DNA from: Cephalotus follicularis | Taxonomy: Eukaryota > Streptophyta > Magnoliopsida > Oxalidales > Cephalotaceae | DNA: 64,000 nucleotides | Direction of reading: 5' to 3' | Assembly (NCBI GenBank): GCA_001972305.1 | Contig: BDDD01000998.1 | Coordinates: 489,462-553,461 of the forward strand | Part shown: positions 17,073 to 52,422 of the stretch, one piece after another | Position numbering within the stretch: position 1 is the stretch's first letter | Layout of the letters: every line of letters begins with the position of its first letter | Position numbers and translations under genes: made by a program | Notes under the pieces: model-generated | The model's input: only the letters and a program-made list of their open reading frames with translations | What the model was told of the DNA's origin: nothing | The model's database searches: none

Positions 17073-19162
17073 TGTCACACCCCGTTTTCAAATTTACATA
17101 ACATACATGGTTATCAATGTATAATCCAGCATTCAACAAAAACCAAAACTCATTAACCATTTGAGGAAGCATTTCATAACCGGATTATTATAATTATCCA
17201 CAAGCAGCCCATACTACGTGCTTACAGGTACAAACATAAGTTATAAATTGCATCTCTGAAATGTAAATATAACAAATGGAATATGATCATTATTACAAGA
17301 TTCACTCACTTTAACAATAATTAAAATAGAAGCCTCCAAGTATGGCTTCAACTGCACTTGCCCAAATACCTTCGTTAATCTGAAATTGTAGGGGTTAGCC
17401 TTTGTCCTCACTCGTCTAAGTAGGAATAATGCATAAGAATTAATATATATATGTAAACATGCATGACAGTTTATTTTGAAAACAATATATATATATGTAT
17501 GTATGTATGTATATATTCCAATATATAAAATCAATCATGCCAAGTGGCTACAATCATTTCAATTATCAAGAATACGGCACAAGGGTAAAATCAATCAATA
17601 CAATGGTTGGGTGACACATGTCGCTAACTCCTAGCACCAACTGCGCACTACCTAACTATCACCCTACACTCCGAAGATGATAGGTCAGGTAACAATTACT
17701 GTCGGCATTTAGCGGGCAGTTTAACATTCAAGAGCTACATTGCAGATAAGTTTGGTGGAAGCTCTAGCCAACTCCTGGTACCTATGACCACCTCCGTAGC
17801 CAGTGATGTCTCCTATCACTCTACTTCAGAAACAAGGATGGACAATCAATACAATTCGTACGGCAATATTGCATATATATGTAATATGTAATATGGCAGT
17901 AGTTCTCTTTTAGAAAACATTAACAATTCAATAACTGTGCCTCTCATTTGGAGGAGACAGTAACATATAACAATGGTTCTCTTGGAACTAAACAATAACA
18001 GTAGCAATAATCCTAACCCTAATCGGAGGAAAATAGTGATTACATAAACTTTAGGATTTCTTTTAGAAAATTTTTGTTGAATCATTATTTGTGCTCAAAG
18101 CACTCCAATGGTATAACCCTTGAATTTTATATAGACAGTAGTAAATTGGAAATCATTTGATAGATACCAATATCAATAACAGTAGCAATATTAACTGCAT
18201 AGTATGAACAGTACTATTACAAGGATTAAAAATACAATAACAAGGTAATCCATAATCATTTATGCAATCAACTACTAGTATACAAGTTGTTAAATCCTTA
18301 TAATACAATCAGACATGGCAGAGGTTGATTTCGGAAATCATCCCCATGGAAGCCAGTGTAATTCTCACGAATTTAACCCAAACAACGACCTAAGCGTCGA
18401 CAGTTCAAGTGAAAGCATCGACAATTTCTAGTCTAAGCGCCATTCATGCAGCCCTAAGCGTCGATGTGTAAGCCATTAGTACTACCACATTTTACATATT
18501 AAGCGTCGACGCTTTACCTTAAGCGTCGACGGTTCCTTCATTAAATGTTGCCTTAAGCGTCGATGTATAAGAACAAAAGACACGCCATTTTAAGCCTAAA
18601 GCGTCGACAGTTGGAAATTAAGCGTCAGCACTTCTGGCGTTCATGCAATTTTCAGGAGCAACACTCAAATAGAACATGTTTAAATCCATTCGAATCTCAG
18701 TTCAACTCAACATGCAACATATATAAACCATAACTACACATTATACATGTTATATGTTCAGGAACATGTCAAAAACCCCTACCTTAATTGCTATCCCAAA
18801 ATCAATTTGAATTGATTTCTCTCTTTAAGTTCCCAAGTCCTTCAACTACAACAATCTCCAATTCCATAAATTTAAAGCTATAGATGCACGTTCGACAGTA
18901 GGTATACATCCAAATAAGTATGTTTACATGGTTGTCTAACCATAACAACATCAAGTGAGCTCGGATTAGTGACTTACCAGGAAAAATCATGCTTCAAACA
19001 CACATTGAACTATCTAGCTCCAACATGCAAGTCTAGAATCACCAGCAAGATTTCCGCTTTCTCAGTGTTTCTAACACCTAAAGCACTCCCTCTAATACTG
19101 ATATAAAGGGTTCAATGCCTAGGAAATCGTCAGATTCCATTAACTTCAATCCCCAGCATTTT

Positions 19163-20277
19163 TGTCACACCCCGTCCTATTATCATAGCATTAAAGCGGT
19201 AAAGGCAATCAATGTAATGCTATCCAGCTTATACAAAATACAATAAATTTAAAAACTTCAATTCCATTCACATGTGCGGAAGCATTTAATAACAAGCTAG
19301 ATAAACAAACTGAATCATGCGTCCCATACCACATGATTCCCACATTTAACATAATTGAGCCATCGTCGAATGCACATGAACGGGGCGTGATCAAAAGTCG
19401 ATCTACACCATTAATATATTAATCCAAAATAATACGGGTCTCAATACATTGTTAAAACATTTATTTAAACAATAAAACTCCATCTCCCCACAGATTCGTC
19501 GTGTACGGTTGAACTCCACATCACTGCATCAATCTGCAATAGTAGGGGGTTAGCCTTTGTCCTCACTCGGCTAAATTATAAGTGTAATTCAAGGTCAGTG
19601 ATAATGAATGTCATGAAATGAATGCACTCATGATGAAATATATAATATATTGCCACACGTACATATACATATGTATATACATATATGCCAATAGGTGCAA
19701 CCATGCCAAGTGGCTACAACCATCAAATCATCAATCATGTCTCAAAGGACAAAATCAATCCAATAAACGGTACGAAGAGCGCCGCCATCTCCTGGCCCCG
19801 ACGTCGTACTCTTACTCCAGCCCCCGACTCCCGGGTCACGAAGCAAGTCAAATCAATCAACTCATGATGCTCGCACTCTGTGTTTAGCAATCATAGTAAC
19901 CCATGTTACTCGCACTATGTGTCAGGTATCATTGTACTTGGGCGTCCCTAGCCATCTCCTGGCACCTAGGAGAACATCCCCGCCACCAGCCATCAGTGAC
20001 ACTCGGTCACCCCAGCCAGTACGGCATCAATCACAATCAACAAATCGATTCAATTCAAATCGTTTCCAAGTAGTTTATAAAGTACTCGACATAATACATT
20101 TATATCAAAATGTATTGCATATTTGAAACTATGTTTCAATCCATTGAAAACATACATTTATTAAAAGATATATTTTCATATCAAATAACGATTTGTGTAA
20201 AATCATGTACACATTTCTAAAATGAATAAAAACACTTTAGAATCAATGACATTCCAATCACCAATTCATTTCATATC
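19163..20277 (-). repeat. Left arm of palindrome Q
   Basis: Antisense half-LTR starting TGTCACACCCCGTCC. It pairs with 20293-21407 with only scattered differences by eye. Confidence 0.9.
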
Positions 20278-20292
20278 TTTGCATTGCATTGT

Positions 20293-21407
20293 GATATCAA
20301 ATGAATTGGTGATTGGAATGTGATTGATTCTAAAGTGTTTTTAGTCATTTTAGAAATGTGTACATGATTTTACACAAATCATTATTTGATATGAAAATAT
20401 ATATTTTGATAAATGTATGTTTTCAACGGATTGAAACATGGTTTTAAACATGCAATACATTTTGATATAAATGTACTATTTCCAGTACTATATAAACTAC
20501 TTGGAAAAGATTTGAATTGAATCGATTTGTTGATTGTGATTGATGTCGTACTGGCTGGGGTGACGGAGTGTCACTGATGGCTAGTGGCGGGGATGTTCTC
20601 CTAGGTGCCAGGAGATGGCTAGGGACGCCCAAGTACAATGTTACCTGACACATAGTGCGAGTAACACGGGTTACCATGATTGCTGAACACAGAGTGCGGG
20701 CATCATGAGTTAATTGATTTGACTTGCTTCATGACCCGGGAGTCGGGGGCTGGAGTAAGAGTACGATGTTGGGGCCAGGAGATGGCGGCGCTCTTCGTAC
20801 CGTTGATTGGATTGATTTTGTCCTTTGAGACATGATTGATGATTTGATGGTTGTAGCCACTTGGCATGGTTACACTTATTGGCATATATGTATATACGTA
20901 TGTATATGTACGTGTGGCGATATATTATATATTGCGTCATGAGTGCATTCATTTCATGACATTCATTATCACTGACCTTTAATTACACTTACGATTTAGC
21001 TGAGTGAGGACAAAGGCTAACCCCTTACTATTGCATATTGATGCAGTGATGTGGATGTCGACCGTACGCGGCAAATCTATGGGGGGATGGAGTTTTATTG
21101 TTTAAATAAATGTTTTAACAATGTATTGAGACCCGTATTATTTTGGATTAATATATTAATGGTGTAGATCGACTTTTGATCACTCCCCGTTTATGGGCAA
21201 TCGACGATGGCTCAATTATGTTAAATGTGGGAATCATGTTGTATGGGACGCATGATTTGGTTTGTTTATCTAGCTTGTTATTAAATGCTTCCGCACATGT
21301 GAATGGAATTGAAGTTTTTAAATTTATTGTATTTTGTATAAGCTGGATAGCGTTACATTGATTGCCTTTACCGCTTTAATGCTGTCATAACGGGACGGGA
21401 TGTGACA
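20293..21407 (+). repeat. Right arm of palindrome Q
   Basis: Sense half-LTR ending GGACGGGATGTGACA. The arm begins GATATCAAATGAATTGGTG next to the loop. Confidence 0.9.
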
Positions 21408-22054
21408 ATTTTCCTTTCTCTCTCCCTAATGCATGTTTTCTTCCTCTTTTCTTTTCACATGTTTTTCTCTCCTCTGAACTTTTGTAGGTTGCATGTTACA
21501 AGGGGAATAGAACACATGCAAGACACCACTCTTGCATGTTACACAGCTGGTGACACGTCTCAGCCCGGCATGACACATTTTAGGACACTTGTCTATGTTA
21601 AAACCTATTAATATGCCACAGTTCTGCTGAAATCACGCGTAGCCCATTTCTAGCCGCGTTCAAAGCGTCGCCGCTTTGCATTTGGCATCGACGATTTGGC
21701 CATTGCTTTGACCTGTCCACAAACACTAACGGTTGACACATATCACTACATTTTTGGACTCAAAGTGTCAACTGTGTATTCAAGGCACCATCGGTTCGGC
21801 GTTTTCAAAGCGCCAATGGTTAGGCATTAGGCGTCGACAGTTTGGATAGTTTGGCGCCTTAACCATTGATTCAATTTCTTTATTTAACAATTTCTCAATT
21901 TCATTCAATTCAAACCCCAAAAATTCTATAATCATAATTCAAAAGATAATAGAGCACATAATCTCAATAAAATGTATATTTATTAAACAAGGGTGCAATA
22001 TACATTAATTGAAATTTGCGGTTGTTACATAGGCTATAGGTCATTGTGGCTTGA

Positions 22055-27005: not shown

Positions 27006-28178
27006 CATAGGGTCTACTATATTATCTTCCCCTGGAACTCACTCCATCTTTATATCTCCTCTTTCTACGATTTCTCATTTTAGATGAAAGCGCCGCAGAA
27101 TATGTTTAGATCTAGCGTGTGACCTTGGTTCTTTGGCCTAAGCTATGGCTCCGTTGTTGTCACAGTATATAGGTATCGGATCCTCAATGGAAGGAATGAC
27201 ACTAAGATCAGAGATGAATTTCTTCCTCCAAACACCTTCTTTAGCCGCTTCAGATGCCGTTATGTATTCAGCCTCCGTGACTGAATCCACAGTGGTTGAT
27301 TGCTTGGAACTCTTCCAGCTCACTGCTCCACCACTTAAGGTGAACACAAACTCTGAGGTTGACTTTGAGTCATCCATATCTGTTTGAAAATTAGAGTCAG
27401 TAAAACCCTGAATATTCAAAACTTGTCCTCCATACACTAGAAATAAATCCTTAGTCCTGTTAAGATACTTTAGGATATCTTTGACAGCTTTCCAGTGACC
27501 CTCACCTGGATTTGACTGATATCTACTAGTAAAACTTGCAGCATAAGCAATATCAGGCCTAGTGCATAGCATAGCATACATGATGCTTCCTATTTCTGAG
27601 GCATAAGGATTGTGCATCATTCTTTGTTGTTCTTCAAATTTCTTAGGAGACATCTGTTTAGAGAGGGAAGTTCCATGACATAATGGTATATAACATCTCT
27701 TGGAGTTCTCCATGCTAAACCTTTTTAGTACTTTATCAATATATAAAGATTGGGACAATCCAAGCATCCTATTCGGTCTATCTCTATAGATTATTATTCC
27801 CAGTATATAGGAAGCTTCTTCCAAATCTTTCATGGAGAATACTATGGATAACCATGCCTTTACGTCCAAGAGCATATCTACATCATTCCCAATGAGTAAT
27901 ATGTCATCGACGTACAAGACTACAAATGTCACTGAGCTCCCACTTGTTTTCTTGTATACACAAGATTCATCCTGATTCTTTGTGAAATCAAACTCTTTGA
28001 TTGCTTCATCGAATCGGATGTTCCATCTCCTCGATGCTTGCTTTAGTCCATAAATGGACCTTTGTGGCTTGCACACTTTGTGGTCTTCACCACTGGATAT
28101 GAAACACTAAGGCTGGGTCATATAGATGTCTTCATCTATGTTTCCAGTAAGGAAAGCAGTCTTGACATCCATCTGCTG
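27006..28178 (-). pseudogene. Reverse transcriptase C-terminal part and RNase H of copia C
   Basis: The open frame 27138-28076 (312 codons) holds RSIYGLKQASRRWNIRFDE, LYVDDILLIGNDV with the catalytic Asp pair, FSMKDLEEASYILGI, SEIGSIMYAMLCTRPDIAY, GFTDSNFQTDMDDSKSTSE, WKSSKQSTTVDSVTEAEY and IYCDNNGAIA. Stops precede it (near 28110) and follow it (AIA then TAG). The 5' piece of the domain is at 51739-51931, beyond element B. Confidence 0.88.
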
Positions 28179-36673: not shown

Positions 36674-37330
36674 TCAAGAAACCAGGTTGTCGGTTAGCGA
36701 CAACGAGGCCATCCTGTCCGTTGGGCTGTTCCCCTCCTGCTGCTGAGCAACATTCCTTAAAACTTCCATAGCCTCTGCCACCTTTGCTTTCAAGGCTTCC
36801 GGTGACTCTAGCAAGTGCAAAACCTCAGTCTGGTCCATCTCTAGAAGCATGCATATCACCTTTGCTGCATTATCATGCTCCAATGCATCCACGAGTGGGT
36901 ATAGATTTTCTCCCAGAAGTGTTCTCTGTTGTGCAGGAGTTGAATTCGCAAGCGCAGTAGCCAAAGCCACAGCTTGCATAGGCTTTGAAAATGTGGCATC
37001 TCTGAATGGCATTCCACCCATGTCGTAAGGAACAGGAAGCATGCCTCCAGGAACACCAACGATGGGACCATCAGGCATACTATGACCAGGAGGGTAACGA
37101 TAGACACACCCCCTGGGAAGCATCTGTGACTGCATTAGTTGAAGTGGTTGCTGCATTTGTTGCACAGGTCCAGCTCCAGATCGTCTGCCTCCTGGATGCT
37201 AGTTCTGCTATCCTGGTTGGACCATTGGCACAAAAAAGTTTGGCCTCATTCCAGGAACAAGTTGTTGCTGATGGTATAGTTGTTACTAGTACATCTACGA
37301 ATGCCTTAGGTGATGATGTCGTGGTGGTCA
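36674..37330 (-). pseudogene. Captured C-terminal fragment of poly(A)-binding protein
   Basis: The 163-codon frame 36674-37165 reads QMLPRGCVYRYPPGHSMPDG and GGMLPVPYDMGG, then an MLLE (PABC) domain: QRTLLGENLYPLVDALEHD, AAKVICMLLEMDQTEVLHLL and SPEALKAKVAEAMEVL. It ends ...LSLTDNLVS at a natural stop. Upstream, in a neighbouring frame, VPGMRPNFFVPMVQPG and then a stop can be read to about 37330. The MLLE domain binds PAM2 peptides in mRNA regulators. The RNA-recognition domains are absent. It is antisense to the transposase and evidently captured by the transposon. Confidence 0.9.
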
Positions 37331-39594: not shown

Positions 39595-39618
39595 ATACTG
39601 AATTTAAAGTCCAGATTT

Positions 39619-40731
39619 ATGATTCCAGAGGCAGGAACAACAGAGATATTACGAATAGTGAATAGTGTCTTACCAGAGGGTACGGTGCTTCCAAAAAATT
39701 ATTACCATTTGAAGCAACATATGAAGGCCTTGGGATTAGGTTATGAAAAAATTGATGCATGTTTGAATGATTGTGTGCTATATTACGGGGAGCACAGGTC
39801 GTTGCATGAATGTCCGACGTGTAATCATCCAAGGTATAAATCATCACGTAAAAACCTTGTACCCTATAAGGTGTTGCGTTACTTTCCTCTTACACCGAGA
39901 TTACAGAGACTATTTTACTCAAACAAAACTGCTGAATATATGCGATGGCATGCAAGTAGAGTCCATAATGAGATGGAGGAGGAACGTGTGATGGTGCACC
40001 CTGCTGACGATGTAGCTTGGAAGCACTTTGATCGTACCTTTCCAGAATTTACTGCGGAAGGTTGGAATGTCAGACTGGGTTTGGCTACATATGGGTTTAG
40101 TCCATTTGGGGTTAGCAGTAAGACCTACTCTTGTTGGCCAGTCTTTGTGTTTCTGTACAATATCCCGCCTTGGATGTGTATGACGAAACCTTTCATGTTT
40201 TTGACATTGATCATAGAGGGCCCAAGAGGCCCTGGGAAGGATATTGATGTGTATTTACGGCCACTCATTGACGAGTTACAGATGTTATGGGAAAATGGGG
40301 TTAAGACATATGATGCATCACGTAAGAAAAACTTTAATATGAAAGCAGCATTACTGTGGACAATTAACGACTTCCCGGCATACGGGATGTTGTCTGGATG
40401 GAGCACACACGGTGGTTTTGCTTTCCCTTGTTGCAAGCAAGGCACGAAGGGTTTTTGGTTGAGTAATGGAGGAAAACATTCATGGTTTGACTGTCATCGT
40501 AAGTTCTTGCCTCTAGATCATCCATTCAGGGGTGACAAGAAAGGGTTCTTGAAGGGGAGAAGTGAAAGAAATGTTGGTGTGGAACGGTTGCAGGGTGATC
40601 AAATTGCATCCCAATTGTCACAGTTTCATCAAGTTCAATTTGGCAAAGGCGTAGATTCGCAGAAGTTGCCTGGATATGGAACTCATCACAACTGGACAAG
40701 GGTGTATGTGTCGATCATTGGAGAGAGGTAG
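39619..40731 (+). CDS. CACTA transposase core (tnp2 / Transposase_21 family), C-terminus missing
   Basis: 370 codons. Visible motifs are LPKNYYHLKQHMKALGL, YEKIDACLNDCVLYY, CPTCNHPRYK, the GLATYGFSPFG region, YNIPPWMCM, IIEGPRGPGKDIDVYLRPL, NFNMKAALLWTINDFPAYGM and HSWFDCHRKFLPLDHPFRGD. Transposase cuts the element ends and inserts the element elsewhere. After HHNW the frame diverges and stops; the family normally continues with several hundred residues, including the DVMHIEKNV segment, not found here. It is therefore probably non-functional or needs a helper. Confidence 0.88.
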   Translation: MIPEAGTTEILRIVNSVLPEGTVLPKNYYHLKQHMKALGLGYEKIDACLNDCVLYYGEHRSLHECPTCNHPRYKSSRKNLVPYKVLRYFPLTPRLQRLFYSNKTAEYMRWHASRVHNEMEEERVMVHPADDVAWKHFDRTFPEFTAEGWNVRLGLATYGFSPFGVSSKTYSCWPVFVFLYNIPPWMCMTKPFMFLTLIIEGPRGPGKDIDVYLRPLIDELQMLWENGVKTYDASRKKNFNMKAALLWTINDFPAYGMLSGWSTHGGFAFPCCKQGTKGFWLSNGGKHSWFDCHRKFLPLDHPFRGDKKGFLKGRSERNVGVERLQGDQIASQLSQFHQVQFGKGVDSQKLPGYGTHHNWTRVYVSIIGER

Positions 40732-44658: not shown

Positions 44659-45673
44659 AAAAGAACCGAGATCCGTTGCACTCTGATTTCATCGAACTAC
44701 TATCATCATGCAGTTGCCCACTTCCAAACTTATTTGCATCCAAAATGCTTAACCAATCCCAGAGACCAGGGAGTTCGCCATGCCGAATTGGCACAGTTGA
44801 CACCCCAAAGCAAAGTGTAGGTACAAAGTTCAAGGTAAATTTGCTTGTTCCATACATTTGATATTAGCTCATACATTTTAATGTACTTCAAATTAGTCAA
44901 TGAAACTAAACAAATTATATCACATTATATACTAATCAGTCACTGAAACTAAACTATATATATCACACTAGTTTCTAGAATAAAAACTGTACCATATTTT
45001 CTGGTACTTTGAAGAAAATTTCAATGTAATGAAATTTCGGTGTCTAGTGTTCTTGATTGAATGATATTGGGTGAATATTTTGAGGATATATCTTTTGTTT
45101 CAATTTAAAAATTACTGATGTGCTAGCTTCTTCGGTGTGCCTGTATGCTGAAAATATGCTTGTTGCTAAAATTATTTTTGACTTTGGCTAAAAAAAGAGG
45201 AATCATATCTAGCAAATTACAAGACTTTCTTGCATGCTTCTAGGGTCAACTCTTTAAACTAATGAACCAGTTGGAGAATACCACACCTCACTTCATTCGT
45301 TGCATAAAATCAAATAGCAAGCAGCTTCCTAGCATGTATGAAGAGGCCCTTGTCTAACAATAGCTCAGGTGCTGTGGAGTTCTGGAGGTTGTTAGAATCT
45401 CGAGATCTGGATATCCTACTAGAATGACACATCAAGAATTTGCTGGAAGGTAGAGAATGGAATCCTTCTTTAGTCTTTTAGTAATTGGTTGAACTATTTC
45501 TCTGCTCATTCATCTCACGTAAATGTTTATGTTTTAGGTATGGGTTCCTTCTTTTGGATAACAGTGTACCTCAGGATCCCTTAAGTATATCAATTGCCAT
45601 TTTGCAACAATTTAATGTGCTCCCAGAAATGTATCAAGTTGGTTATACTAAATTGTATCTCCGAACAGGCCAG
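44659..45673 (+). pseudogene. Captured exons of class VIII myosin motor domain
   Basis: Three exons with AG/GT borders: 44659-44834 (NRDPLHSDFIELLSSCSCPL, ending QSVGTKFK), 45244-45449 (GQLFKLMNQLENTTPHF, then two in-frame stops, then SGYPTRMTHQEFAGR) and 45538-45673 (YGFLLLDNSVPQDPLS, LPEMYQVGYTKLYLRTGQ). They correspond to the end of the plant myosin VIII (ATM1-type) motor head, just before the IQ motifs. The stops show that no motor is made. Confidence 0.88.
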
Positions 45674-46520
45674 GTATGATCCCATGATTTTCAAATGTTA
45701 CTAATTATTTTGGTGTTGATCATTGTCATTTAGGCTAATGGTTTTGTTGTGGATGACAAAACCATGATAATGTGTGCCTCGCTGTTTATTCCAAGAATTT
45801 AGGTGCGCATAAAGATTCAGCTACTGAAGGACCTTTTTGAACTTTTTCAATACATATATGATATATTCCCTGAGAAACGTAGGTAATAGTATCTAAATGT
45901 GATAAACATATATTCTCACGGGTCCACTATTCAAATCTTCATCTACACAATAGTCAGCTCTCAGCACTTGTTGCACATAGCATAACCTTCCAAATGTTCC
46001 CCTTTTTGTCTTAGTTTACATTATATAAGACTAAGTAATAAAATAACTTTTTTATGCACTTTGTAATTGTGCTTCTGTGCTAGATTGGCTGTTTCCTTTA
46101 TATTCAGTTGTTTTGTGTGAAGGGTGTGACTCTGACGTGGAGGTTGAAAGAAAAAAATGTAGAAAGAAATCCTTTTTGCTATCTTATGTCAATTCACACA
46201 TATTAATTCCGTTTGTCACGATTTTATGATAATAGTGCTGTAAATAGAAGTGTGTGATAATGCTCCAGGTTGAAGTTCATAAGTACTTTCTGTTTATCCA
46301 TACGTAACAATCATATGGAACCACTTCTCCTTGATATTTATGTGCAGATGATACCAATTTTAATTTCGTATCTATAGCCCTGATGGTACTTGTGAACTTT
46401 CCTAGTTTTTTTAGGTGTATAATAAAGTGGAGAAAAAATATTAGATACTTCTTGACAGGTGATTAGAATGATATGATTTAGATTTAGGTGTGGTCTGCTG
46501 AGGGCTGAGCCCAAATATAC
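45365..46520 (+). repeat. Tandem duplication unit 1 (1156 bp) in CACTA F
   Basis: Starts TCAGGTGCTGTGG and ends GAGCCCAAATATAC. It contains the end of myosin exon 2, exon 3, the following intron and part of the kinesin-side spacer. Unit 2 looks identical throughout by eye. Confidence 0.92.
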
Positions 46521-47676
46521 TCAGGTGCTGTGGAGTTCTGGAGGTTGTTAGAATCTCGAGATCTGGATATCCTACTAGAATGACACATCAAGAATTTGCT
46601 GGAAGGTAGAGAATGGAATCCTTCTTTAGTCTTTTAGTAATTGGTTGAACTATTTCTCTGCTCATTCATCTCACGTAAATGTTTATGTTTTAGGTATGGG
46701 TTCCTTCTTTTGGATAACAGTGTACCTCAGGATCCCTTAAGTATATCAATTGCCATTTTGCAACAATTTAATGTGCTCCCAGAAATGTATCAAGTTGGTT
46801 ATACTAAATTGTATCTCCGAACAGGCCAGGTATGATCCCATGATTTTCAAATGTTACTAATTATTTTGGTGTTGATCATTGTCATTTAGGCTAATGGTTT
46901 TGTTGTGGATGACAAAACCATGATAATGTGTGCCTCGCTGTTTATTCCAAGAATTTAGGTGCGCATAAAGATTCAGCTACTGAAGGACCTTTTTGAACTT
47001 TTTCAATACATATATGATATATTCCCTGAGAAACGTAGGTAATAGTATCTAAATGTGATAAACATATATTCTCACGGGTCCACTATTCAAATCTTCATCT
47101 ACACAATAGTCAGCTCTCAGCACTTGTTGCACATAGCATAACCTTCCAAATGTTCCCCTTTTTGTCTTAGTTTACATTATATAAGACTAAGTAATAAAAT
47201 AACTTTTTTATGCACTTTGTAATTGTGCTTCTGTGCTAGATTGGCTGTTTCCTTTATATTCAGTTGTTTTGTGTGAAGGGTGTGACTCTGACGTGGAGGT
47301 TGAAAGAAAAAAATGTAGAAAGAAATCCTTTTTGCTATCTTATGTCAATTCACACATATTAATTCCGTTTGTCACGATTTTATGATAATAGTGCTGTAAA
47401 TAGAAGTGTGTGATAATGCTCCAGGTTGAAGTTCATAAGTACTTTCTGTTTATCCATACGTAACAATCATATGGAACCACTTCTCCTTGATATTTATGTG
47501 CAGATGATACCAATTTTAATTTCGTATCTATAGCCCTGATGGTACTTGTGAACTTTCCTAGTTTTTTTAGGTGTATAATAAAGTGGAGAAAAAATATTAG
47601 ATACTTCTTGACAGGTGATTAGAATGATATGATTTAGATTTAGGTGTGGTCTGCTGAGGGCTGAGCCCAAATATAC
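46521..47676 (+). repeat. Tandem duplication unit 2 (1156 bp) in CACTA F
   Basis: Exact offset of 1156 bp from unit 1, including a second copy of myosin exon 3 (46694-46829) and the end of exon 2 (46521-46605). The near-identity implies a recent event, after capture. Confidence 0.92.
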
Positions 47677-49086: not shown

Positions 49087-51738
49087 GCATCCCATACTAC
49101 GTGCGGTTACAATTCAAATAAATTATCCTTACAAGCGGAAGTACAACATTAACGAGGTATGAACCGTTCAATACAAAACAGTACAACATCATGAAGATAA
49201 CAACCTTAAAACGAAAGTAGAAGCTTTCCAAGCTTCAGCAGCAATCTTCAACGACTTCGCTTAATCTGAAATTGTAGAGGTTAGCCGTTGTCCTCACTTG
49301 GCTAAGTAGGAAGATAAAGTATGCTAAGGATTATGTGAATGCAACATGTATGACATTTTATCTCAAAATAACATTTAGATGAGCCAAAATATATAGCAAT
49401 CATGCCAAGTGACCATAAACAACCCATATGCAAGAATACTGCATAAGGGTACAATCAATTCATCCATCAAATTGGGTGTCACATGCCGCTATCTCCTAGC
49501 TCCGACTGTGCACTACCTAACTATCTCCTGCGCTCCGAGGATGATAGAACCGGTAACATTTACTACCGGCATTGGTGGGTAGTTTAACAAATACGATCTG
49601 CCATGCAGATAAGTTTTGGAGATCTCCTAGCCAACTCCTGGCTCCCAGGATCCCTACCGTAGTCGGTGACCACAGCCATCACTCGACTACCGGCAACAAG
49701 CACAAACAATACAAGCATTCAATAATAATATTACATATATCAGCAATATGCAATATAAAAGTGGTTTTCTTTAGAAACATATAACAAGTCATTTATCGTA
49801 CATCTCTTCGGAGGAAAACGATATCAATACAATAATGGTTTCCAGTATGGGAAACAAAACAGATGGTATCTCTCTTAGGAGAAAATCAATAATTTCTTTT
49901 AAACAATAGGTTCCATTGAAAATGATAGTTGATATCATAATTTGGGTACATAGCCCATAGTTGGTTTCAATTATTGAAATACACGTGGTATTGGTGTTAA
50001 ATGACACCAAACCGTATATACTAATATGACAGTAGCATATTCAATAGCAATAACACAAATCAGTAGCAATGCAAGGCTTCACAAAGAATAGCATTACATA
50101 GTCAATTCATATGCAACTCTCACAAGGGGTGCGTACATTGTTTAGTTTTGGAATGTAATTGTATATGAGGCCAGGATTAACTGTTCTAGTCATCCAAATG
50201 GAGGCCAGGTTCATTACATTCAAAATTGAGGCCTTAACAAGACTTATATCAGTAATTTTACCCAGGACAGTCGGCTGCCTTGAAGAATAGCCGGCTGCCT
50301 TGGTCGAGTAGTCGACTGCTTTGCCTTGGCAGTCGACTGGATAGGGTTGAGTAGTCAACTGCCATGAAGAGCAGTCGACTGCTTCTGCCCAGAAAATGCA
50401 GGCAGTAGCAGTTTGTATATTTCACAATCCAAATTCAATATAATCAAAGCATGCAACAATGCAGAAAGATAACATACATGATATGCATGATCGTATCTTC
50501 CGTAACATATCGTTACCCCTACCTTAAATCGCTATCCCAAGATCAATTGGAATGATCTTTCTCTTGAGTTTCCAAAGTCTTCACCAAAAATCTTTTAATT
50601 CCAGCAGGTTCATTCTATATCATGCATGTTTATGGACACATGCATTAGCACCAGTAGGTTTCACTAGATTATCCAGCTACAATTACTACTTCAACAGTAG
50701 TTTATTACCAATCCTTTAAGTCTCAAGCTTTTATCTTACAATTTCCTTTTGAACTCTATGTCAAACACCATTTAATTTCGGATTCTTGATCCTAATGAGT
50801 TGACAGAAGGTATACATGTGTACATAGGGGAATCAGTAGGCATAATACAACTAACCAAATTCGAATTAGAATTATTAAAATTCTCTAAGCTTCATATTTC
50901 TTACTCCCCTTTCATACTATTTCTAATTCCATCCTAGAATTTGCTAATCTTAACCATTTAGCAGGAGATATTAGCATTCCTAGTCACATTCTAGACAGAT
51001 TACAATAACAGCAGGAAGCTCGAATTGGAACTTACCAGGAGAAGTCTAAGGCTCCCCAAGTCTTTGAGTTCCACTCCAAATCCCCAATGCAAGCTTTCAA
51101 GAATCCTCTAGAACCTCTCCTCAATTTTCAGTGTTTCTAACACTCACTCTTAGCTCATGAACAGCTGATATAGAGGTCAGGGACTTGAATTCGCCAGATT
51201 CTTTAACTCTTCCTTCTCTCATCACATGCACTTCTTTATCTCTTCTCTCTATCTCTTTCTCACCTTTCTCTCTTTGATTTTGCAGGTTACAGGTCTGCAA
51301 CTTGCAGGTGGAATAGAGGGCATGCAAGCATGCCTTTTTGCATGCTCTGGCAGCTCCTGTCTCGTGTGACACCTGTCCACCATGCAATACTCCTTTGATT
51401 CAGTCACACAGGCATGCACAGACACCTGTTCTGTACCGATCCAGTCGACTGGATGCATTGGCCCGTCGACTGTCCATAACACGCATCAGGCAGTCGACTG
51501 CTCCCCTTTGACAGTCGGCTGCCCTTTCATAAACCAGGAAGTTGACTGCCTCATGTGACAGTCAGCTGTCGATGGCTATTTTAGGGTTTCTTAAGTTTGA
51601 GTTTCATAAATTTGCATCTCCATTCATCCCGATCAATTACAAATCACAATTTATGATAATTGGACATTAAATTCAAATGAGTGCACATTTTATTAATCAA
51701 TATTACAATGTACACGAATTGAATTTGCGGTTATTACA
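49087..51738 (-). repeat. 5' LTR of element B, outer piece
   Basis: Continues the LTR after CACTA F and ends (in element sense, starts) at TGTAATAACCGC. It differs from 28326-30982 by scattered substitutions and small indels. GTCGAC-type clusters lie at 50270-50390 and 51440-51570, and the hairpin block at 49281-49305. Confidence 0.9.
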
Positions 51739-51931
51739 ACCGTATCTCATAATCATAGTGTGCAGCTATGGCAAGCAGAATCCTAATGGATTTAAGCATG
51801 GCTACAGAAGAGAATGTTTCCTCATAATATATTCTCTCCCTTTGATTGTAGCCTTTGGCAACTAACCTTGCTTTGAATGTCTTTAACTTCCCATCATCTC
51901 CAATTTTATTTTGAAAATCCACTTGCACCAT
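51739..51931 (-). pseudogene. Reverse transcriptase N-terminal part of copia C
   Basis: Open frame reading VKTFKARLVAKGYNQ, then RERIYYEETFSSVAMLKSIR and AAHYDYEI, cut at 51738 by element B. The antisense sequence at 28178 resumes with MDVKTAFLTGN in the expected place. Confidence 0.88.
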
Positions 51932-51972
51932 AAGGGCTTGACCCCTTCAGGTGCATCTGTCAACTTCCAAAC

Positions 51973-52422
51973 CTAATTGGAGTACATGGATTCCATTTCA
52001 TATTCCATAGCAATTAGCCATTTTTCAGAGTCCCTATCTGATATTGCTTCTTGGTAGGTTAATGGGTCATCTTCCATAAGATTTACCTGTTGAGTGTCCT
52101 CAATGAGGAAGCTACCATCATATCTTTCAGGCTCTCGAACAATTCGGCCTGATTTTCGAGGAGGTTCTTCTATCATTGTGGGTTGAGTTGTATGGGGTTC
52201 AACAACTTGGCTTGGTCCAGGTAGATCATCAATTTGTGCTGCTTTAGACTCTTCATCAAGCTCTACTTGGCTCCCACTATTTTCTTCTAAAAGGAATTCC
52301 TTCTCAAGGAACGCAGCATGTCTTGACACGAAGACATTACCTTTGGGAGGATTGTAGAAATAATACCATTTTGTTTCTTTAGGGTATCCCACAAATTTGC
52401 ATTTTATGGATATAGATTGCAA
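51973..52422 (-). pseudogene. Integrase-RT linker of copia C
   Basis: 149 codons: KCKFVGYPKETKWYYFYNPP, FLEKEFLLEE, then an acidic variable linker, then PERYDGSFLIEDTQQ and QEAISDRDSEKWLIAMEYEM, the start of the RT domain. Separated by a stop from integrase (52438) and by a frameshift from the next RT piece. Confidence 0.85.

Follow-up and report, generated by a model that had tools for sequence, protein, structure and literature searches.

We analysed a window of 64,000 nucleotides from Cephalotus follicularis (contig BDDD01000998.1, positions 489,462 to 553,461), and found a palindrome of 2245 bp inserted into an LTR of the Ty3 type. The palindrome (19163-21407) consists of two 1115-nt arms around a 15-nt loop, and the features of the locus are as follows.

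17073-22029, minus strand: host of the palindrome, a related Ty3-type LTR, interrupted, with its U3 start TGTAACAACCGC at 22029 and its U5 end at 17073
19158-19162: left TSD copy, ATTTT, read directly (exact 5-bp TSDs also occur in 10 of 28 ordinary copies of the LTR)
19163-20277, minus strand: arm 1, the 3' half of an LTR in antisense, with the U5 terminus TGTCACACCCCG outermost
20272-20277: left half of the hinge stem, CATATC, the identical 6 nt being found here in ordinary LTRs
20278-20292, plus strand: loop of 15 nt, TTTGCATTGCATTGT, which in ordinary LTRs is mostly TTTGCATTGCATTTT
20293-20298: right half of the hinge stem, now GATATC, where most ordinary copies, as well as arm 1 when read in sense, have GATATG
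20293-21407, plus strand: arm 2, the 3' half of an LTR in sense, with the U5 terminus GGGATGTGACA outermost
21408-21412: right TSD copy, ATTTT, read directly

The arm-versus-arm alignment revealed that the arms are 94.5% complementary, with 61 substitutions and no indels. The first-pass annotation had described the two 1115 bp U5-ended arms, the 15 nt loop and the exact ATTTT duplication, and direct reading, the arm alignment and the comparison with ordinary copies (below) confirmed all of them. It had also called the palindrome "perfect-style", a loose term, as the arms differ at 5.5% of sites. The two ATTTT copies directly abut TGTCACA on the left and TGTGACA on the right (border sequences TGTCACACC and GGATGTGACA), and the chance of a 5-nt flank match at set positions is expected to be about 0.001 for a base composition of 39% GC. 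Both U5 termini end in CA. We thus found the exact LTR termini and the 5-bp TSD of an integrase insertion, whereas the one U3 end and one U5 end of a solo LTR are replaced by a U5 end on both sides. The host LTR is flanked by GCCTA and ACCTA.

To characterize the source of the arms, we searched the genome (1.577 Gb, 9746 contigs), and 41 arm-like matches, including the palindrome's own two arms, were obtained from the best 40 of 8673 candidates scored. The source family consists of ordinary Ty3-type LTRs of about 2.28 kb with many copies in the genome. A U3 start similar to TGTAACGCCCGGGA (at most 2 substitutions) was present in 24 of the 28 ordinary copies fetched first, and neither end of the palindrome resembles it. 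The LTR length was 2235-2316 bp in 22 of 24 measured copies, the shortened ones being L003 and L023. Besides the exact 5-bp TSDs in 10 of 28 copies, three more have a TSD with one mismatch. The primer site TGGTATCAGAGC, which presumably fits initiator tRNA-Met, lies four bases past TGTGACA in exact form in 5 of 28 copies and with one change in L003 and L008, and the polypurine tract AAGGAGGGG precedes U3 in five of the 24 copies with a U3 start (L003, L015, L020, L024, L027). The family therefore has the TG...CA ends, the polypurine tract followed by U3, and the U5 followed by a tRNA primer site that define a Ty3-type LTR. Since the arm corresponds to the 3' half of the LTR in ordinary copies, both outer termini of the palindrome are, by sequence comparison, U5 ends. 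In all 7 ordinary copies that carry a primer site, four nucleotides, RCAG, separate this site from CA; both ends of the palindrome lack them, which matches the expectation for trimming by integrase.

A complete, related element in the window (28179-51738, minus strand) confirms the orientation of the LTR: in it, a polypurine tract is followed by TGTAATAACCGC, and the other end reads GGGGTGTGACA. Among the Pfam domains, which were sought within the window, gag, RVP_2 (protease), RVT_1 (RT) and H2C2 (integrase zinc finger) occur in this order in the element, with the integrase core rve under the cut-off. Its LTRs of about 2.8 kb are 96.4% identical (2661 columns, 86 mismatches, 3 gap openings). 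The element sits inside a copia element, pieces of which were found at 51739-52021 and 27034-28172, and itself carries nested insertions, its 5' LTR being broken near 49087. Within this transposon nest, an open frame at 36677-37195 (minus strand) encodes an MLLE domain (E 2.7e-25), and a Transposase_21 (tnp2) gene lies nearby at 39598-40728 (plus strand). Poly(A)-binding protein carries an MLLE domain at its C-terminus, and the frame is possibly a captured piece of a host gene. We also observed an exact tandem duplication at 45364-47676 (1157 bp, 100% identity), which is either very recent or an assembly effect.

We then compared the hinge of the palindrome with the same region of ordinary LTRs. 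Ordinary copies typically read GCACTTGAG CATATC TTTGCATTGCATTTT GATATG AAATGAATTGG, and the palindrome reads AATTCATTT CATATC TTTGCATTGCATTGT GATATC AAATGAATTGG. Arm 2, the loop and the left stem are collinear with ordinary LTRs, and the sequence to the left of the left stem is replaced by an inverted copy of the sequence to the right of the right stem. A 215-bp query spanning the hinge, for which the best 40 of 2188 candidates were scored, matched end to end at its own locus only; in all 39 other places scored, collinearity starts at query positions 94-98, no more than 3 nt from the first base of the stem (95). Both stem halves were exact and at a fixed position in 28 of 39 copies covering the hinge, and a larger set had both halves in 47 of 57. 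Judged from these copies, the 6-bp inverted repeat CATATC/GATATG with its 15-nt loop predates the palindrome and sits exactly at its hinge. The new observation here is that a fold-back seed at the hinge already exists in ordinary LTRs.

The probability of a stem of at least 6 bp at a random hinge was 0.00098 (position pairs 4-30 nt apart, five copies). Stems of at least 6 bp are common across the roughly 2.2 kb of the LTR, with 50 counted in L004 and 43 in L012; many exceed the hinge stem in length, and L012 does not have the CATATC/GATATG hinge stem. Folding of the 27-nt cDNA stretch gave the hinge hairpin as the minimum-energy structure, but it is weak (-2.5 kcal/mol), and as DNA it is no stabler than shuffled sequences (z -0.49).

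Next, we examined whether the arms share a source. Polarisation of the 61 arm differences assigned 30 derived changes to each arm and left one undecided. Of the 60 derived states, 57 are missing from a set of 41 other copies (three partial) or occur in no more than 10% of them, and 31 are C>T or G>A changes. This balance and this share of C>T or G>A changes are as expected from decay after the birth of the palindrome. The family is star-like, with ordinary pairs differing by a median of 5.3% and the arms by 5.5%, so that the arm divergence and the 30/30 private changes also fit two unrelated copies. More discriminating are the states that two sequences hold exclusively, counted among copies that had been chosen for their similarity to arm 2 or to the hinge. 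With 40 rows, at least three exclusive states were found in 4 of 780 pairs, namely L030/L044 (7), the arms (4), L020/L026 (4) and L003/L007 (3). With 53 rows, a set from which 11 partial copies and 7 duplicates of places already represented had been removed, the pairs were 3 of 1378: L030/L044 (7), L020/L026 (4) and the arms (3, in none of the 51 others). L003/L007 was dropped as a sharing pair, its three states falling to 1 or 0.

L020 and L026 are the 5' and 3' LTR of one element, and L020/L026 and L030/L044 are, as judged from their flanks, identical by descent. The L030/L044 locus (G000:C468) holds the same LTR insertion with its left flank twice, about 11 kb apart; one is a solo LTR with a TSD and the other has a primer site after the LTR, so the pair reads as a duplicated locus with two fates. 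L003 and L007 (G000:C870) are LTRs about 6 kb apart with a primer site after both and a polypurine tract before one, and probably belong to a complex element that contains at least three LTRs. Because the arms have exclusive states in common in the way seen for copies identical by descent, both arms likely come from one source and, like the two LTRs of one insertion, would have been the same at birth and decayed afterwards. The exclusive states common to both arms also disfavour RNAs of different elements as their origin, and two RNAs of one element are a possible source.

A looser count does not set the arms apart. When states present in at most two other copies were allowed, the arms shared 5 with 40 rows, the same as L021/L041, and 4 with 53 rows, where L072/L033 (12) and L049/L033 (10) shared more and L021/L041 again equalled or exceeded the arms. 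The tree pairs both arms with low support (66/28; 72% of 200 bootstrap trees). We had considered selection or conversion as the reason for the indel-free arms and dropped this idea: since the neighbouring LTR pair in the window has only 3 gap openings with its 86 mismatches, no indels with 61 is not unusual. At a substitution rate of 1.3e-8 changes per site per year, the palindrome is about 2 million years old.

To find further palindromes, a 35-nt hinge pattern was searched genome-wide with up to 3 mismatches. It matched its own locus and L032 and L033, both in the ordinary arrangement, and no second palindrome at the same hinge. No palindrome hinged at the arm's longest other stem (9 bp, +161) was found genome-wide with up to 3 mismatches, and in 69 other fetched loci (62 places, each taken with some 1.5 kb to the left and right of its match) the arm was never present in the two orientations at once over 100 bp. 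The annotation had suggested a genome search for further palindromic units with two TGTCA...TGACA ends; no second palindrome was found in these limited searches, which covered the hinge pattern and the 215-bp hinge query, one other hinge and the 69 loci. A foldback or MITE family is recognised by many copies with their own TSDs; here the palindromic hinge was seen once, and older copies or copies with another hinge could escape. The palindrome is a single case so far.

Taken together, these data suggest that the palindrome is a partial minus-strand cDNA of a Ty3-type element that turned round at the hinge repeat before integration and was then inserted by integrase, a reading to which we assign a probability of about 0.7. 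The minus-strand cDNA would start at the tRNA primer beside U5, copy U5 and then R, and stop or be trimmed about 1.14 kb on, just beyond the 6-bp inverted repeat. Its 3' GATATG would anneal to CATATC, located either 15 nt inside its own molecule or on a sister cDNA from the same element and particle, and the annealed 3' end would be extended back to the U5 end. With two molecules, a duplex that ends in U5 on both sides would result directly; with one, the product would be a hairpin, and second-strand synthesis would be needed for a linear U5-U5 duplex. Integrase would then trim both U5 ends to CA and insert the duplex into another element's LTR, generating the 5-bp TSD. We infer in this way the formation before integration, the cause of the cDNA stop, the self-priming as the synthesis step and the origin of the second end.

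Fold-back by self-priming had been proposed in the first-pass annotation. The hinge seed that it predicts, a hairpin in the unfolded parent sequence, is present in 47 of the 57 ordinary copies and lends the proposed route independent support from sequences that the annotation did not have. A lone hairpin has one integrable end, and the one-molecule form thus requires an extra step to reach two U5 ends. Both forms are realistic, because a yeast experiment, as described in excerpts of the study (PMC11724301), yielded inverted insertions from 69-nt ssDNA whose inverted 8-nt microhomologies were separated by a spacer of 18 nt, of which 16% of 342 had identical barcodes, indicating intramolecular events, and the rest by implication came from two molecules.

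We also considered where the cDNA might have stopped. The TATA-like site TATAAATAC lies 747 nt upstream of the hinge in one of 28 copies (L013), and a weaker TATAAA was found at -313 to -404 from the hinge in 18 of 28. These candidate sites fit the annotation's remark that the TATA of related LTRs sits further upstream, and led us to drop a strong-stop end exactly at the hinge. Because they lie upstream of the hinge, the cDNA looks like a partial product whose stop seems to fall within R-U5. With the stop apparently inside R-U5, no natural RNA end accounts for it. In two copies compared with mononucleotide shuffles, RNA folding is stronger in the 400 nt preceding the hinge than in the AU-rich sequence that follows, but z-scores elsewhere are as good or better, and RNA structure as the cause of the stop is suggestive only and not decisive.

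Among other explanations, conversion in place keeps the most ground, and we consider it unlikely. A solo LTR with its TSD would have existed first, and soon after, a strand switch during repair or replication at CATATC/GATATG would have copied the U5 half backwards over the U3 half, with a return to the first strand at the TGT that both LTR ends share. The annotation had argued that an inversion in place would not create the TSD; this is incomplete, since a solo LTR already has one. The hinge repeat suits such a conversion equally well, the imperfect inverted LTR ends TGTAACGCCC / TGTCACACCC offer a landing site, and the 2245 bp of the palindrome are close to the length of an ordinary LTR. Fold-back at break sites employs such microhomologies, but the local fold-back insertions given in excerpts of PMC11724301 are mostly about 5-34 bp and at most "over 150 bp", against 1.1 kb here. 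Two switches are required, the second exactly inside a 3-nt terminus. Moreover, the arms have 5-6 rare states in common against 30 derived on each, so that, assuming a steady clock, the conversion would have to date from roughly the first sixth of the time since insertion.

Slightly less probable again is the co-insertion, by one integrase complex, of two U5-ended partial cDNAs of one element whose inner ends were joined through the CATATC microhomology. Retroviral integrases do carry out bimolecular concerted integration in vitro, the 6 nt of CATATC are also usable as a joining microhomology, and two U5 ends with a TSD would arise without a second-strand step. Such an event needs two truncated double-stranded cDNAs plus a repair join, and the junction has neither gained nor lost bases and shows a single loop substitution only.

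An assembly artefact, for instance from overlooking a hairpin adaptor or collapsing a repeat, is very improbable. Palindromes tend to misassemble, but a missed adaptor gives identical arms and mirrored flanks, whereas here about 30 changes are private to each arm and the mirroring ends at LTR termini with a TSD. We give the least credence to two unrelated LTR fragments lying head to head or to a multicopy foldback (MITE-like) family: the source family has many members (8673 candidates at first look, of which 40 were scored) and its copies diverge as much as the arms do, but the TSD, the equal arms, the hinge at a pre-existing repeat and the private states common to the arms argue against both, and the palindromic hinge, found once in the hinge pattern search and among the 40 of 2188 candidates scored, against a family.

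If the reading as a cDNA that turned round before integration is true, a self-primed product can integrate, and integrase needs two good ends rather than one U3 and one U5 end. LTR sequence could also be turned into long inverted repeats in this way, and structures of this kind can trigger silencing of a transposon family, as Mu killer does in maize. We tentatively propose, as a conjecture that may well fail, that the integrase of a plant LTR retrotransposon accepts self-primed U5-U5 palindromes made from one cDNA or two sisters, that errors of reverse transcription could thus seed 2-kb chromosomal inverted repeats of LTRs, and that such palindromes might be ready hairpin-RNA loci able to silence their own family. 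The signature of two U5 ends, a 5-bp TSD and a hinge at a short inverted repeat is searchable in long-read plant genomes. In the titles and abstract openings of the open-licence literature searched, no integrated U5-U5 palindrome is named.

The palindrome resembles several known products. Like a solo LTR, it is of comparable length, consists of LTR sequence, has a 5-bp TSD and contains no internal region; unlike a solo LTR, it has no U3 half, and an inverted U5 half stands in its place. With the fold-back insertions at double-strand breaks, as excerpts of PMC11724301 describe them, it has in common a short inverted microhomology, a short spacer and an origin from one or two ssDNA molecules. 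Those insertions, in contrast, are captured by end joining, are mostly tens of bp long, and in these excerpts have no integrase ends or TSD. The complex LTR insertions of Sabot and Schulman 2007 (PMC1950507), in the part of that paper considered here, similarly go back to an error of reverse transcription before integration and are marked by a 5-bp TSD and similar outer LTRs. Their three-LTR elements are attributed to switching between two RNAs, whereas the palindrome turns round and has two U5 ends.

The closest parallel is the self-priming of HIV-1 minus-strand strong-stop DNA, which, according to excerpts of PMC4668388, depends on TAR and is lowered by nucleocapsid. In both cases, a minus-strand R-U5 cDNA would fold near its 3' end and prime itself. 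On the evidence of the same excerpts, self-priming was a suppressed side reaction with heterogeneous or abortive products (PMC4668388), in our view a dead end; here, by contrast, the product would be that of a cellular retrotransposon, would derive from a partial cDNA, and would be integrated with a TSD.
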